The notes under the pieces: model-generated
Database searches by the model: none
What the model saw: only the letters and a program-made list of their open reading frames with translations
What the model was told of the DNA's origin: nothing
Origin: Tepidamorphaceae bacterium
Lineage (GTDB): Bacteria > Pseudomonadota > Alphaproteobacteria > Rhizobiales > JAKSCL01
Direction of reading: 5' to 3'
Length of the DNA: 64,000 nt
Assembly: GCA_028289445.1 (NCBI GenBank)
Contig: JANQPO010000016.1
Coordinates: 1 to 64,000 of the forward strand
Shown here: positions 39,114-46,427 of the stretch, one piece after another
Numbering within the stretch: the stretch's first letter is position 1
Layout: every line of letters begins with the position of its first letter
Made by a program: the position numbers and the translations under genes

Positions 39114-39731
39114 TCAGACCGCCGGCGGCGTATCGGGGCGGAAAAGCGACAGCGACCGGCCCGCGTCAGCGGCCTCTTCGAGCCAGGTCATCGCGTAGTC
39201 GGCATAGCTGCGAAATACCAGAAGATCGAACACGTCCGGATCGTCCGCCACGCAAATCATCGCGGCGGCGATTTCACCCAACGTGACGCGGCGCACATAG
39301 CCCGGCGCGATCTCGTCCGCATACATGTCAATCGGGATGCATTTCGATAGAACCGCGCGGCAGCTCTCGCCTTGCACGCGGAGAATGGCCCGCATGTCCG
39401 AGACATCCGTCAAGGCGTGACGATGCGACCCGAGCGCCTCGGCCAGCGCTTGCTCCAACGCGACGAGACCCTCGCGCGGAGCAATAATCAGCCATTGATC
39501 GATGGAAAACCAATAGGCGGCAACGTCGCTTGCGCTCGCGCTGCTGCGCGGGTCCGTCGGCAGATCGAACCCGAGTACCTTGGACGCCGCCGCCCGCGCC
39601 TTCGTGTCTTTCGATCCGATCCGCAGGTCGAGGACGCTGATGTCGGATCGATCGGCGATCTCGATATCGAGCGCGTCGGATGCCGCTGGATCGCGATGGG
39701 CAAGCGGTCCGGTCCAGGCGATGTCAGACAT
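39114..39731 (-). CDS. soxG: Sarcosine oxidase gamma subunit
   Basis: Position and sequence typical of SoxG; 8-bp overlap with soxA. Confidence 0.85.
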   Translation of the reverse strand: MSDIAWTGPLAHRDPAASDALDIEIADRSDISVLDLRIGSKDTKARAAASKVLGFDLPTDPRSSASASDVAAYWFSIDQWLIIAPREGLVALEQALAEALGSHRHALTDVSDMRAILRVQGESCRAVLSKCIPIDMYADEIAPGYVRRVTLGEIAAAMICVADDPDVFDLLVFRSYADYAMTWLEEAADAGRSLSLFRPDTPPAV

Positions 39732-42700
39732 TTTGCCGCTCCCCCTCCTTGTCATAGAACACGGGGTCCACGATCTTGCCCGCGACCAGCCGATCATCGA
39801 TCGGGAAGTGAACGGTCTCACCCATGCGCTCAGAGCCCCGCTCAATCAGCGCAAAGGCAATCGACCGATCGAGGGTCGGCGAGTAATAGGTCGACGAGAC
39901 ATAGCCAATGGGCTCGGCGGCGCTTGCGTCGGTGCCATCGATCGCCTGGACGCCATCCGGCAACACAAAGGTCGGGTCGTCGGTCTCAATCCCAACGAAC
40001 TGGCGCCGATCCGGGCGCTGAAGGGCAGGCGTTTGCAAGGCGCGCTTGCCGACATAGTCGGCCTTCTTCTTCGACACGGCCCAACTGAGGCCGAGGTCGA
40101 GCGGGGTGACCGTTCCATCGGTCTCGTCGCCGATCATGATGAAGCCCTTTTCGGCGCGCATGACATGCAGAGCCTCCGTACCATAGGGCTCAAGGCCGTG
40201 CACCGTGCCCGCGTCGATCACCGCCTGCCACAGAGCCAACCCTCGGCCGGCGGGCGTCGCGACCTCGTAGGACAGCTCGCCCGAAAACGAAATCCGAAAA
40301 ACGCGCACTGGTGCGCCGTTCAGATGTCCAGCCTGATAGTCCATGAACTTGAACGCATCGGCGGAGAAGTCGAGATCGCTGTCGAGGGATTGAAGCACCT
40401 GCCGCGCCTTCGGCCCGGCGATCGCGAACTGCGCCCACTGCTCGGTCACTGGCGTGATGAAGAGGTTTAGCTTCGGCCATTCCGTCTGGTGCCAGAGTTC
40501 GAACCATGCGGCTGTGTGATCGGCATTGCCGGAGGTCGTGTGAACCAGAAAACGATCGTCATCCAGCCGGGCAACCACGCCGTCGTCAAAGAGGAAGCCC
40601 TGATCGTTCATCAGCAGCCCGTAGCGGCAGCGGCCGACTTTCAGGCTGCTCATGACATTCGTGTACATCAGATCGAGAAATTTGCCGGCGTCCGGTCCAC
40701 TGACTTCGATCTTGCCGAGTGTCGATGCGTCGAGCAGCCCGACCTTGGTACGCACAGCCAGGACTTCGCGGATGACGGCCTGTTCGCGGGTCTCGCTTGC
40801 ACGCGGGAAGCAGTAGGGGCGGCGCCATTGGCCGACCGGCTCATAGTCGGCGCCATTGACCTCGTGCCAGCTCTGGATCGGCGTGCGCCGGATCGGCTGG
40901 AACAGCGCCCCACGCTTCTGGCCGACGAACGCGCCGAATGAGATCGGCGTATAGGGCGGGCGAAAGCGCGTCGTTCCGACCTGCGGGATCGAGATTTCAA
41001 GGGCGTCGGCGACGATCCCGAGCGCGTTGATGTTGGACGTTTTGCCCTGGTCGGTCGCCATGCCGAGCGTGGTGTAGCGCTTGACGTGTTCGACGGAGCG
41101 ATACCCCTCGCGCACGGCCAGTTCGACATCGGCCGCCGTGACGTCGTTCTGGAAGTCGAGGAAGTGCTTGTTGCCCTCGTTCTTGGCACCCTCGGCCGGC
41201 ATGAACCAGACCGGCTCCATCGGGCCTTCTGAATCGGCGCGCGCCGTTGGTGCTTTCGGCGCGCGGCCGGCCTTGCCGATAGCCGCCTTGGCTGCCGCGT
41301 GTCCGCCGGCCGTTGCTTCCTTCAGGATCGAGGGCAAGTCGAATGTTCCGTTGGCCGCCCCGACGACGCGCAGCCGTTCGTTCGTTGTCCCCGGCACGAA
41401 ACTCGCCAAGTCTTCGCTGAAGTCGAGCTTCCCCGTGACGTGGCAAAAGAGGTGAACGGCGGGGTTCCAGCCGCCGGACATACAGACCAGATCGCATGGG
41501 ATGGTCTCGACGTCGCCAACTCGACCGGACCGGCGTAGCGGCGCGACCTTGATCGCCCGCAAACCCTTGCCACCGGCCTCGCGCACGACACCGGCGATGC
41601 CGGAGGAGAACGTCAGGCGGGTCCCGAACGCCTTCACCCGATCGACAAGCGTGCCCTGTGCGTCCGGTCGGGTATCGATGATCCGTGCGACGTTGACGCC
41701 GGCCTCGAAAAGCGTCTGAGCGGTCCGATAGGCGTCGTCATTGTTGGTGATGATCACCGCGTCATGGCCGGGCGTCACGCCATAGCGCGCGACATAGCCG
41801 CGAACGGCTGACGACAGCATGATCCCCGGCGTATCGTTGTCGGCGAAGGCGAGGGGACGTTCGATCGCGCCCGAGGCCAGTACGACCTCTCCGGCCCGAA
41901 CCTTCCACAGCCGATGACGTGGCGCGCCTGCGGCGATCAGTGCCGGATTGTGATCCGCCACGCGCTCCATCATCACCGCATAATTGTGGTCGTAGTGACC
42001 CGACACCGTGGTTCGTTTCAGAACTTGCACGCGCTCGTTTGCGGCCAGTTCGGCAACGGTCGCGCGCATCCACTCGACCGGGTCGATGTCGTCAATCGTA
42101 CCGCCTTCAAGGTCGGTTATGCCGCCGAAGCGCGCGCTCTCGTCGGCAATGATTACCCGGGCGCCCGCGTCCATCGCCGCCTTCGCCGCCGCGATCCCCG
42201 CAACGCCGCCGCCGACAACAAGGACATCGCAATGGACGTGAACCTGTTCGTAACTGTCCGGGTCAGCGTCTTGCGGTGGCGGCCCAAGCCCCGCGGCGCG
42301 GCGAATGAACGGTTCATAGATGTGCTTCCAAAACACTCGCGGCCACATGAAAGTCTTGTAGTAGAAGCCGGCTGGAAACAGCCGTGAGAAGCGGGCGTTG
42401 AGTGCGCCGACATCGAAGTCGAGAGATGGCCAGCGGTTCTGGCTCTGCGCCGTCAAACCGTCATAGAGTTCGGCCTGGGTGGCGCGAATGTTCGGTTCCA
42501 TCCGCGCGCCGTCGCCGATGGCGAACAGCCCGTTCGGTTCCTCCGATCCGATGCCGATCAGGCCGCGCGGGCGGTGATATTTGAACGACCGGCCGACAAC
42601 GCGAACGCCGTTCGCCAGCAGAGCCGATGCTAGCGTATCACCAGGGTGACCGGTTAGCGTCTTGCCGTCGAAGGTGAAGGACAGCGTCTGCGAACGGTCG

Positions 42701-42762
42701 ATCAAACGGCCCGCCCGGCCGCCGAGTGCGGCCTCCGGCAGACGATGCGGCAGGCCGCTCAC
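39724..42762 (-). CDS. soxA: Sarcosine oxidase alpha subunit
   Basis: LSFTFDGKTLTGHPGDTLASALLANGVRVVGRSFKYHRPRGL; FAD motif VVGGGVAGIAAAKAAMDAGARVI; C-terminal GcvT-like domain; GTG start inside GTGA overlap with soxD. Confidence 0.95.
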   Translation of the reverse strand: MSGLPHRLPEAALGGRAGRLIDRSQTLSFTFDGKTLTGHPGDTLASALLANGVRVVGRSFKYHRPRGLIGIGSEEPNGLFAIGDGARMEPNIRATQAELYDGLTAQSQNRWPSLDFDVGALNARFSRLFPAGFYYKTFMWPRVFWKHIYEPFIRRAAGLGPPPQDADPDSYEQVHVHCDVLVVGGGVAGIAAAKAAMDAGARVIIADESARFGGITDLEGGTIDDIDPVEWMRATVAELAANERVQVLKRTTVSGHYDHNYAVMMERVADHNPALIAAGAPRHRLWKVRAGEVVLASGAIERPLAFADNDTPGIMLSSAVRGYVARYGVTPGHDAVIITNNDDAYRTAQTLFEAGVNVARIIDTRPDAQGTLVDRVKAFGTRLTFSSGIAGVVREAGGKGLRAIKVAPLRRSGRVGDVETIPCDLVCMSGGWNPAVHLFCHVTGKLDFSEDLASFVPGTTNERLRVVGAANGTFDLPSILKEATAGGHAAAKAAIGKAGRAPKAPTARADSEGPMEPVWFMPAEGAKNEGNKHFLDFQNDVTAADVELAVREGYRSVEHVKRYTTLGMATDQGKTSNINALGIVADALEISIPQVGTTRFRPPYTPISFGAFVGQKRGALFQPIRRTPIQSWHEVNGADYEPVGQWRRPYCFPRASETREQAVIREVLAVRTKVGLLDASTLGKIEVSGPDAGKFLDLMYTNVMSSLKVGRCRYGLLMNDQGFLFDDGVVARLDDDRFLVHTTSGNADHTAAWFELWHQTEWPKLNLFITPVTEQWAQFAIAGPKARQVLQSLDSDLDFSADAFKFMDYQAGHLNGAPVRVFRISFSGELSYEVATPAGRGLALWQAVIDAGTVHGLEPYGTEALHVMRAEKGFIMIGDETDGTVTPLDLGLSWAVSKKKADYVGKRALQTPALQRPDRRQFVGIETDDPTFVLPDGVQAIDGTDASAAEPIGYVSSTYYSPTLDRSIAFALIERGSERMGETVHFPIDDRLVAGKIVDPVFYDKEGERQNV

Positions 42763-43067
42763 GATTGCCCCTCGTCGAAATTCGCCAGGTCCGGCGCCTT
42801 TTGATCCATGCGATAAAACGCCTTGAACTCCATGGTCACGGTGTCGCGGACCGCATTGAACCACTTGCCGCAGCCGCGCGTGCACTGCCACATCTCGCAG
42901 TGCAGGCCGCGCGGGTTCTGGCGCAGGTAGAGATAATCGCGCAGTACCTCGTCGGAGACGTTTTCGGGATCATGGGACTGCGGGCGCACCAGATGCGCCT
43001 CGCCGCCGCAATGAAAGTCGGCTTCTTCGCCTTCGATCCCGCACACCGGGCAGTGGAGAACCAGCAC
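42759..43067 (-). CDS. soxD: Sarcosine oxidase delta subunit
   Basis: LHCPVCGIEGEEADFHCGGEAHLVRP, LHCEMWQCTRGCGKWFNAVRDTVT. Confidence 0.95.
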   Translation of the reverse strand: MLVLHCPVCGIEGEEADFHCGGEAHLVRPQSHDPENVSDEVLRDYLYLRQNPRGLHCEMWQCTRGCGKWFNAVRDTVTMEFKAFYRMDQKAPDLANFDEGQS

Positions 43068-43084
43068 GCTTTGCTCCTTTGCCT

Positions 43085-44335
43085 CTAGTGTGCCACGGCC
43101 GCGGCGGTCGACTCGTCGACCATGCGCCCTTCGAGGAACCGATTAAGCCCAAACGGTTCGGCAATCGGATGCGGCCGGTCGTTGGCGATCGAATCCGCGA
43201 AGACAAAACCCGAGCCGGGGATCGCCTTGAAGCCACCCGTGCCCCAGCCGCAGTTGACATAAAGACCCTTGACGTCAGTCTCGCCGATGACAGGCGAGCG
43301 GTCGGCGCTCATGTCGACGATGCCGCCCCACTGGCGCAGCATTCGCATGCGCGAAAACGCCGGGAACAGCTCCAGCAGTGCGGTGGCCGTGTGCTCAAGC
43401 GCCGGGATGCTGCCGCGCTGCGAGTAGTTGTTGCAAGCGTCGGCGCCGCCGCCGATCACCAGTTCGCCCTTGTCTGATTGGCTGACATAGCCATGCACGG
43501 CACCGGCCATGACCACGACGTCGAGCATCGGTTTCACAGGCTCCGACACCATGGCCTGGAGCGCGACGGATTCAAGCGGCATACGCACACCGGCCATGTC
43601 CATGATGACGGAGGTGTGGCCGGCGGCGACGACGGCGACTTTCTTCGCCTTGATCTTGCCGCGCGTGGTGTCGACGCCGGTAACCGAGCCGCCACGACGG
43701 CTGATGCCAGTTACGGCGCAATTTTGGATCACGTCGACGCCGAGCGCGTCGGCACCCCTGGCATAGCCCCAGGCAATCGCATCGTGGCGGGCCGTGCCAC
43801 CGCGCGGCTGATAGAGCGCGCCCAACAACGGATAGCGCGCGTCCGGGCTGTCATTGATCAGAGGAACCAGTCCTTTGACCTCTTCACGGGAGAGGAACTG
43901 CGTGTCGAGACCGGCGATCCGATTGGCGTGCACGATGCGCTTGAAGACGCGCAGTTCGTGCTCCGTCAGGCACAGATTCAAAAGCCCGCGCGGCGAGAAC
44001 ATGATGTTGAAGTTGAGTTCCTGGCTCAAGCCTTCGTAAAGCGAGCGGGAGAGTTCGTAGATCGCAATCGATTCCGGCTGGAGGTAGTTGGACCGGATGA
44101 TCGTGGTGTTGCGCCCGGTATTGCCGCCGCCGAGCCAGCCCTTGTCGAGGATCGCCACATTCGTGACGCCATGTTCCTTGGCAAGGTAATAGGCCGTCGC
44201 CAGGCCGTGGCCGCCGGCGCCGACGATAACGACGTCGTATTCCGATTTCGGCTCGGGCGAGCGCCACGCCTTTTGCCAACCTTTGTGGAATGTCAAAGCG
44301 TTGCGCGCGAGTGTGAATATGGAATAGCGGTTCAT
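43085..44335 (-). CDS. soxB: Sarcosine oxidase beta subunit
   Basis: MNRYSIFTLARNALTFHKGWQKAWRSPEPKSEYDVVIVGAGGHGLATAYYLAKEHG. Confidence 0.95.
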   Translation of the reverse strand: MNRYSIFTLARNALTFHKGWQKAWRSPEPKSEYDVVIVGAGGHGLATAYYLAKEHGVTNVAILDKGWLGGGNTGRNTTIIRSNYLQPESIAIYELSRSLYEGLSQELNFNIMFSPRGLLNLCLTEHELRVFKRIVHANRIAGLDTQFLSREEVKGLVPLINDSPDARYPLLGALYQPRGGTARHDAIAWGYARGADALGVDVIQNCAVTGISRRGGSVTGVDTTRGKIKAKKVAVVAAGHTSVIMDMAGVRMPLESVALQAMVSEPVKPMLDVVVMAGAVHGYVSQSDKGELVIGGGADACNNYSQRGSIPALEHTATALLELFPAFSRMRMLRQWGGIVDMSADRSPVIGETDVKGLYVNCGWGTGGFKAIPGSGFVFADSIANDRPHPIAEPFGLNRFLEGRMVDESTAAAVAH

Positions 44336-44588
44336 GACGCCCCGAAACTCAACAGTCCTCGCGGAATGGAGCGTACCCAAACATCGCTTTGTCGTTCAAG
44401 GCAAGTCCCGGCACGACGCTCGGTCGCCGCATTCGCGACATTCTGCCGCGACACAAGCGCATGTCAGGGCTTTTGATTGTTGGAATGGTTCAATTCTGTA
44501 AGGAAAGGCTCTAAGTACAGGAATGGCGAGATCGCGGCCGTAGATTGCGGGCTGCGAACGCAAAGAAGAGAGGCGAACCAGCCGTAAA

Positions 44589-45704
44589 ATGGTTCTGTGG
44601 ATTGTCTTTGCCGTGATGACGGCGGCCGCTTTGGCGGCCGTGGTGGTGCCGTTCGCGCGCAAACAAGACCAGATCGAAGCGGGCGGAACGGACCTTGCCG
44701 TCTATCGCGATCAGCTCGCCGAGATCGATCGCGACAAAGCGCGCGGCGTGATCGACAAGCGAGAGGCTGAAGCGGCGCGAGTCGAAGTGTCGCGCCGCTT
44801 GCTCGGCGCCACCGATCACGAGACCGATCCTTCGACCTCCGCAGCGCCATTGCGCCCAGTTTTGGCGGCGATCGTCCTGATCGTTCCCGCCGTGGCGCTT
44901 GCCGGCTATCTGGCGTTCGGCAGTCCAACGCTTTCAGGTCAGCCGCTCGCAGCGCGCCAACAAGAAAACCCCGCCGATCCGCGCATGGCCGAACTTGTGA
45001 CCCGCGTCGAGGCGCATTTGCGGGCCAATCCGGACGATGGGCGAGGCTGGGACGTCATTGCGCCGGTCTATATGTCCATAGGTCGCTATGATGAGTCGGT
45101 CCTGGCCTATCGGGCGGCCATTCGCTTGCAGGGGTCGACATCAAGCCGCCAGGCCGACCTGGGCGAGGCGCTTGTTCATCAGGCTGGCGGTGTGATCACG
45201 GCGGACGCTGCGGCGGCATTTCAGGCCGCGCTTCTTGGCGGCGGAGATTCGCCGAAGGCGCGCTTCTACCTGGCACAGGCCGCTGAACAGGATGGTAGGC
45301 TCACAAAAGCAAGGGAACTTTGGGCGGAGCTTTTGGAGATCTCGCCGGCCAACGCACCCTGGGTGCCGGAGGTCCGCGCTCGATTGAACCGGGTCGAAAC
45401 GGAACTGGGCGTTGCGCCGAGCGCGCCCGGACCGACGACGGAACAGGTCGAGGCCGCGCAGGACATGTCGGCCGAGGACCGTATGGCGATGATCGAAGGC
45501 ATGATCGCGCAGCTCGACCAGCGCCTGACCGACGAGGGCGGAACGGCGGAGGAATGGGTGCGCCTCATTCGATCGCTGATGGTGTTGGACAAAGCAGACG
45601 ATGCGCGCAACGCACTGGACCGCGCCCGGACCGATCTGGCCGACAACCCCGATGCCTTGGCACAGGTCAATGCGGCCGCCGGCTCATTCGGATTGGGTGG
45701 CTAG
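44589..45704 (+). CDS. ccmI: Cytochrome c biogenesis protein CcmI
   Basis: N-terminal TM, YRDQLAEIDRDKARGVIDKREAEAARVEVSRRLL, TPR-rich; upstream of ccmE/F/H. Confidence 0.9.
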   Translation: MVLWIVFAVMTAAALAAVVVPFARKQDQIEAGGTDLAVYRDQLAEIDRDKARGVIDKREAEAARVEVSRRLLGATDHETDPSTSAAPLRPVLAAIVLIVPAVALAGYLAFGSPTLSGQPLAARQQENPADPRMAELVTRVEAHLRANPDDGRGWDVIAPVYMSIGRYDESVLAYRAAIRLQGSTSSRQADLGEALVHQAGGVITADAAAAFQAALLGGGDSPKARFYLAQAAEQDGRLTKARELWAELLEISPANAPWVPEVRARLNRVETELGVAPSAPGPTTEQVEAAQDMSAEDRMAMIEGMIAQLDQRLTDEGGTAEEWVRLIRSLMVLDKADDARNALDRARTDLADNPDALAQVNAAAGSFGLGG

Positions 45705-45973
45705 GCCGTGTGGACGAATTGGATTTGGAGCATGGTATGAGGCAAAACCGGTCAGTATCAGGCGCAAAACCGCGGGAAGGGTGGTCCCCTTTCAAGGTTT
45801 TGCAACGCCATTATGGCCGGTTTTGGCCATATCCCTGCGGGACGCGGCGGATTTCGCCCCCGACGGCGTTGAAAACCCCTTGTGGTGAACCACACCACGG
45901 CGGATTTTTCGCCTTGTCAGCGACGAAATCCGTCTCGCGCCATGCCCGAAACCAGTTCGTCCACACGGCCTAG
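45701..45973. mobile_element. MITE-like element with 22-bp TIRs
   Basis: Left CTAGGCCGTGTGGACGAATTGG, right end reverse complement CTAGGCCGTGTGGACGAACTGG (21/22); CTAG at both borders; multiple internal hairpins; no transposase ORF. Confidence 0.8.
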
Positions 45974-45977
45974 CACC

Positions 45978-46427
45978 ATGACGCGCAAGCAACGACGCCT
46001 GTCCCTGATAGTGGTTGCCGGCCTGGTGCTCGCCGCCGCCTCGGCTTTGGTCCTGACGGCGCTCCAGGACGAGATCGTCTTTTTCCGCTCACCGACCGAT
46101 GTTGCCGAAAACAAAGTGACCGAGGGCACTCGCTTCCGGCTTGGCGGCTTGGTGGAGGAAGGGTCCGTGGAACGCGGTCAAGGCGAGGCGGTGCGCTTTG
46201 CCATCACGGACACGGCCAACACAATCAACGTGACCTATACCGGCATCCTCCCCGACCTGTTCCGCGAGGGGCAGGGCGTGGTGACGGAAGGCACGCTGGA
46301 CCAATCCGGCCTCTTTGTCGCCGACACGGTGCTCGCCAAGCACGACGAAACCTATATGCCGCCGGAAGTGGCCGAAGCGCTGAAGGCGCAAGGCTATTGG
46401 CAGGGTGAGGAGGGATCGACCCAATGA
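45978..46427 (+). CDS. ccmE: Cytochrome c maturation protein CcmE (in-frame upstream ATG at 45942 inside the MITE)
   Basis: [74 protein letters not shown] heme-binding motif. Confidence 0.95.

Follow-up and report, generated by a model that had tools for sequence, protein, structure and literature searches.

A probable IS5-type MITE in the stop codon of ccmI, and its relatives of fixed length and conserved two-armed fold

The DNA analysed here, referred to as the window, consists of the first 64,000 nucleotides of contig JANQPO010000016.1 from a Tepidamorphaceae bacterium (assembly GCA_028289445.1). It contains ccm genes, of which ccmI (TPR domain of CcmH/CycH), ccmE, ccmF and ccmH were confirmed with Pfam. 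Adjoining them on the minus strand (39724-44380) are open reading frames that resemble, by eye, sarcosine oxidase alpha, delta and beta. The element under study separates ccmI from ccmE, and its parts are given in Table 1.

Table 1. Features of the ccmI-ccmE interval, in window positions
Feature	Positions	Strand	Basis or remark
ccmI (CcmH/CycH TPR domain)	44589..45704	+	frame intact; stop codon re-made by insertion
TA target duplication, left copy	45702..45703		with 45704, TAG stop of ccmI
left terminal inverted repeat GGCCGTGTGGACGAATTGG	45704..45722	+	first ~17 bases identical to ends of IS5-family IS
inner stem, left strand (ATTTGGAGCATGG)	45723..45735	+	kept across families with differing outer repeats
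hairpin arm 1 (~96 nt)	45736..45831	+	fold
central mini-hairpin (around CCCTGCGGG)	45832..45842	+	fold
hairpin arm 2 (~97 nt)	45843..45939	+	common to second 266-268 bp family of own genome (L003, L004, L007)
inner stem, right strand	45940..45951	+	alignment and common structure
right terminal inverted repeat GGCCGTGTGGACGAACTGG	45952..45970	-	inverted-repeat search
TA target duplication, right copy	45971..45972		flanks of copies
ccmE	45978..46427	+	frame intact; start codon 5 bases past right TA copy

A preliminary description of the window had placed a 273-bp MITE-like element between the two genes, with CTAG at both borders. Kind and location stood, and the length had to be corrected: the exact element spans 45704-45970, that is 267 bp, between two copies of TA in a CTAG target. 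CTAG is present at both borders, but only its TA is duplicated, as the flanks of other copies include aTAa and tTAc. The near-perfect terminal repeats of that description were recovered as inverted-repeat arms of 29 nt (45700-45728 and 45946-45974), 90% complementary, within which the terminal repeats themselves measure 19 bp and differ at one position. The 19-mer GGCCGTGTGGACGAAYTGG has two sites in the 64-kb window, one at each end of the element, for a chance expectation of 0.07, and was absent from the rest of the window when up to 3 mismatches were allowed. The internal hairpins already listed were found as well, and the 267 bp contain no transposase frame, as had been stated.

ccmI ends at the CTAG itself, its TAG stop being formed by the target TA and the first G of the element. 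Because the element begins with G, TA followed by G gives back a TAG stop whichever way the element is oriented, and the upstream protein is therefore unchanged. In the predicted ccm mRNA, the element should fold as a stem, at the base of which the ccmI stop and the region of the ccmE start are brought together, and the likely Shine-Dalgarno sequence of ccmE, GGTGG, pairs with CACC before the ATG. No promoter was found within the element, and it gave one terminator-like match, for 0.5 expected.

Among 25 relatives with a CcmE match, ccmI and ccmE were separated by -4 to 180 bp, with these repeats absent, in 23; the two other junctions were not counted as empty. The CcmE of the nearest relative compared is 69% identical, none being close enough for a base-exact empty site. 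The two genes lie closer in most of these relatives, as had been expected, and the comparison of junctions revealed no sequence conserved at this place across distant genera.

In the genome to which the window belongs, neither a second copy of the window's terminal repeat nor a DUF4096 transposase was found, and the full-length IS with these repeats that had been envisaged there was not found either. The idea of further copies held in part: interior homologues exist, one of them full length but bearing another outer repeat (L002/L057, GGCTGTATCGACATACATG), and no copy with the same ends was seen. Six more places match arm 2 only, most of them visibly within elements that have a third end type, GGGTCC.... 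A second element family, about 266-268 bp long and with ends GGGTCCATACTCAATTA..., was observed on contigs C18, C8 and C14 (L003, L004, L007, L008); its arm 2 is common with the window element and its arm 1 unrelated, an instance of arm shuffling between families.

The same ends were recovered in other genomes. When 85,462 species genomes were scanned with TAGGCCGTGTGGACRAAYTG, 84 stretches were obtained, chiefly in Roseibium, Brucella, Mesorhizobium, Shinella and others, in which paired ends were spaced either by about 874 bp, enclosing two overlapping transposase frames, or by 266-267 bp. The longer type, found in Brucella, Shinella, Mesorhizobium and Roseibium, is an IS5-family IS bounded by terminal repeats identical to those of the window element; its frames match NF033580 (IS5) with 150.9 bits for a cut-off of 110, and are also above cut-off for PF01609 and PF13340. 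Since these frames overlap, the partner IS would belong to an IS427-like group with frameshifting. The shorter type corresponds to MITEs of 266-267 bp bearing the window's ends, in Roseibium/Labrenzia. YTAR is the target of nearly all full-length MITE copies and IS copies. The proposal that the element is IS5-related and non-autonomous was borne out by these complete elements of other genomes, which share its ends and YTAR targets, and we conclude that it is very probably a non-autonomous transposable element (MITE) of IS5 type. The IS reading frame closes with ...FVHTA, its stop codon being supplied by the target TAR: in copies L103, L109, L118, L119, L127 and L144, the transposase frame extends to the final base of the IS, the TAA or TAG coming from YTAR.

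Relatives of the interior are more widely spread. Of 398 genomes of the order, 23 matched, about 10 of them with clear interior homologues, each having its own outer repeat. At least five other outer repeats accompany these homologues in other genomes (among them GGCTGTATCGACAGTCAG, GGGTCTGTTGAGAATCAG, GGGCCAATCGACATTCAG and GGACCAATCGACCGTCAG), and in several genomes the homologues are dispersed over many unrelated loci. Copies were also present on plasmids of Terrarubrum, Roseibium and Rhizobium; phage sequences gave no match to the element. About 30 partial or full copies were counted in genome G061. Several contigs end within such elements (contig ends of G061; L005/L006), so that copy numbers in draft genomes are underestimated. 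Two elements of 262-263 bp, L027 (1330-1592, ends GAGCCTTATCC..) and L046 (1332-1593, ends GAGCATGATCC..), have no more than a short interior part in common with the window element and may represent a further branch of this kind. CcrM sites (GANTC) are absent in most copies, and no Rfam covariance model matched the element up to an E value of 1.

What these elements have in common is a fold. The window segment folds end to end, with an RNA energy of -157.8 kcal/mol (z -12.1 relative to shuffles) and a DNA fold of z -10.9, also relative to shuffles. Seventeen full-length members, aligned over 270 columns, measure 266-269 bp and follow one layout, namely a terminal stem of about 31, an arm of about 97, a mini-hairpin and a second arm of about 97. 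Their common structure comprises 100 pairs, with 96.4% of cells paired; 49 of these pairs have changed on both sides, versus 25.6 in shuffles, and double-changed cells amount to 175, versus 53.9 in shuffles and 8-18 when the partner was slid. This layout, 266-268 in total, keeps identical domain coordinates in the Roseibium elements and in L004 and L007, the arms of which are unalignable or half alignable with those of the window. In most copies the two strands are about equal in how well they fold. At common pairs predicted on both strands G-U (22) and A-C (21) are equally frequent, so that selection on one RNA strand is not claimed; the fixed pairs lean towards G-U on the plus strand, a few being of that type. 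Some unpaired arm positions are conserved. An inverted-dimer origin, with arm 1 as the reverse of arm 2, was considered and rejected, the signal exceeding shuffles in the window element and L057 only, and not in twelve others.

Derivatives found in G061 (L257, L254, L256, L245, L249) point to a way in which such a fold may be kept. One element of 63 bp is a foldback of one end with no arm; two elements of 161 bp contain arm 1 alone or arm 2 alone, with long near-perfect stems; and elements of 303-304 bp share a 36-base hairpin insert and differ by an inversion of arm 2. As such products would arise when a strand under replication folds back and serves as its own template, the 63- and 161-bp derivatives and the arm flips suggest intrastrand template switching. 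Such switching would by itself render ends and arms complementary, with no need for selection. It leaves the conserved unpaired arm positions unexplained, and purifying selection probably acts on these few unpaired motifs.

The position of the insertions was also non-random. In 18 of 31 insertions, a few of which share a locus or genome and are not fully independent, the TA lies exactly in a stop codon; 5 others are at most 100 bases past a stop, 4 elsewhere in intergenic DNA, and 4 in called coding sequence. The background, 400 kb drawn from five of the family's host genomes, contains 409 non-coding YTAR sites, of which 42 (10%) are stop codons (p 5×10−11 for non-coding sites). The figure was obtained with a home-made codon-score gene caller that assigned 79% as coding, which somewhat inflates the intergenic background. 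A comparison limited to sites no more than 100 bases past a gene is safer, and gave 18:5 versus 42:74 (p 4×10−4). In a second scoring, 16 of 31 non-coding insertions were at stop codons, versus 8.8% (p 6×10−9); for IS copies the count was 0 of 12. The orientation relative to the upstream gene was about 7 to 3, from few cases, and 19 of 29 insertion sites lie between co-directional genes. An independently annotated case was provided by Terrarubrum flagellatum, where the element splits the TAATG that joined the soxB stop to the soxD start: soxB now ends with TAG, using the G of the element, and soxD has retained its ATG. In the ccm and sox copies, the next ATG lies 0-5 bases past the target duplication. 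That the Terrarubrum copy sits between soxB and soxD while sarcosine oxidase-like frames adjoin the ccm genes of the window is a coincidence. Survival bias surely contributes to the excess at stop codons, because such insertions spare the upstream protein. This placement and the family-wide conserved fold had been overlooked in the preliminary description.

Several known systems resemble this one in part. IS5 likewise has a transposase of the DDE family and a Py-T-A-Pu target, most commonly CTAG, but it duplicates four bases and is autonomous (PMC5493358). Closer is IS711 of Brucella, in the Alphaproteobacteria as well, which has two overlapping frames, inserts at YTAR with duplication of TA, and is linked to the palindromic repeats Bru-RS1 and Bru-RS2, of 103-105 bp (PMC2266754, PMC2267715). 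Bru-RS has been presented as a place where IS711 may insert preferentially, a possible hot spot, whereas the palindromes here are part of an IS-ended, two-armed element with a fixed 267 bp. According to the relevant passages of PMC2229807, RUP of Streptococcus pneumoniae is also non-autonomous, with a TA target and ends matching IS630-Spn1, which is held to move it, but it measures 107 bp and is of the IS630 family, and these passages mention neither a two-armed modular fold nor a stop-codon bias. The same passages give Correia/NEMIS elements of Neisseria terminal inverted repeats, TA at the termini and hairpin-forming transcripts, as here, with sizes of about 107 and 155 bp, other ends and other hosts. 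The words stop codon, Brucella and Rhizobi do not occur in a 2024 review of prokaryotic MITEs (PMC10969869), and the open-access papers searched yielded no description of the family, its modular fold or its stop-codon bias. The MITE is a known kind of element; the fixed length, the modular two-armed fold and the stop-codon placement of this family appear to be new.

We propose that a 267-bp MITE transposed into the CTAG ending ccmI, the transposase being provided by an IS of about 874 bp that the host genome lacks or has lost. An IS5-family DDE transposase would have recognised the outer repeats of about 17 bp, linked the element to YTAR with duplication of TA, a step we infer because ends and targets match. 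The element would belong to a widespread two-armed foldback family of fixed length, whose arms may be kept complementary, flipped and lost by apparent intrastrand template switching.

Other readings of the locus were weighed. One of them, a conserved regulatory RNA that acts in cis in the ccm operon, such as a ccmE attenuator or leader that arose with the operon, would suit the strong sense-strand fold, the extensive compensatory change across the family and the position between two genes of one operon. It is nevertheless very improbable, given that 23 of 25 relatives lack the element at this junction and that it has relatives at unrelated loci (soxB-soxD and, by eye, rpsP-rimM), lacks an Rfam match, and possesses a target duplication and terminal repeats. 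Even less credit can be given to a palindrome of the REP/BIME or ERIC type, or an integron attC-like site: the element is indeed palindromic and intergenic, but its terminal repeats match those of IS5-family IS, it has a YTAR target with TA duplication, no gene-cassette array surrounds it, and its length greatly exceeds that of a REP (20-40 bp, PMC3733652).

A MITE is also assumed in the reading that the fold is kept because transcripts must fold, with operons tolerating insertions only when the RNA forms a neat loop-out and holds the upstream Shine-Dalgarno sequence or the terminating ribosome by the downstream start codon. The frequency of sites between co-directional genes, the close ATG in ccm and sox, the conserved unpaired positions, and the similar folding of both strands, needed if either orientation is transcribed, all agree with it. 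We nevertheless consider it rather unlikely, since G-U and A-C are equally frequent at shared pairs and variable sites have no sense-strand preference, the likely ccmE Shine-Dalgarno sequence is itself paired in the predicted mRNA, and template switching accounts for complementarity without selection.

Returning to the IS5-type MITE, a more ambitious extension, which we put forward with considerable doubt, is that these elements form an Alphaproteobacterial superfamily specialised to stop codons. YTAR and the leading G would always rebuild a stop, and the fixed-length two-armed fold would keep the insert looped out of the mRNA and let operons survive insertion, even those with stop-start overlaps such as TAATG; the arms would be interchangeable modules, and the outer repeats would be swapped to follow different IS transposases. 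It is an unusually clear non-autonomous case, in that families whose transposase-recognition ends differ have conserved length and fold, not sequence, and in that the element accumulates at stop codons. It makes testable whether selection or template switching keeps the pairing in palindromic mobile DNA, and how operons tolerate an insert that separates a stop codon from the start codon following it.
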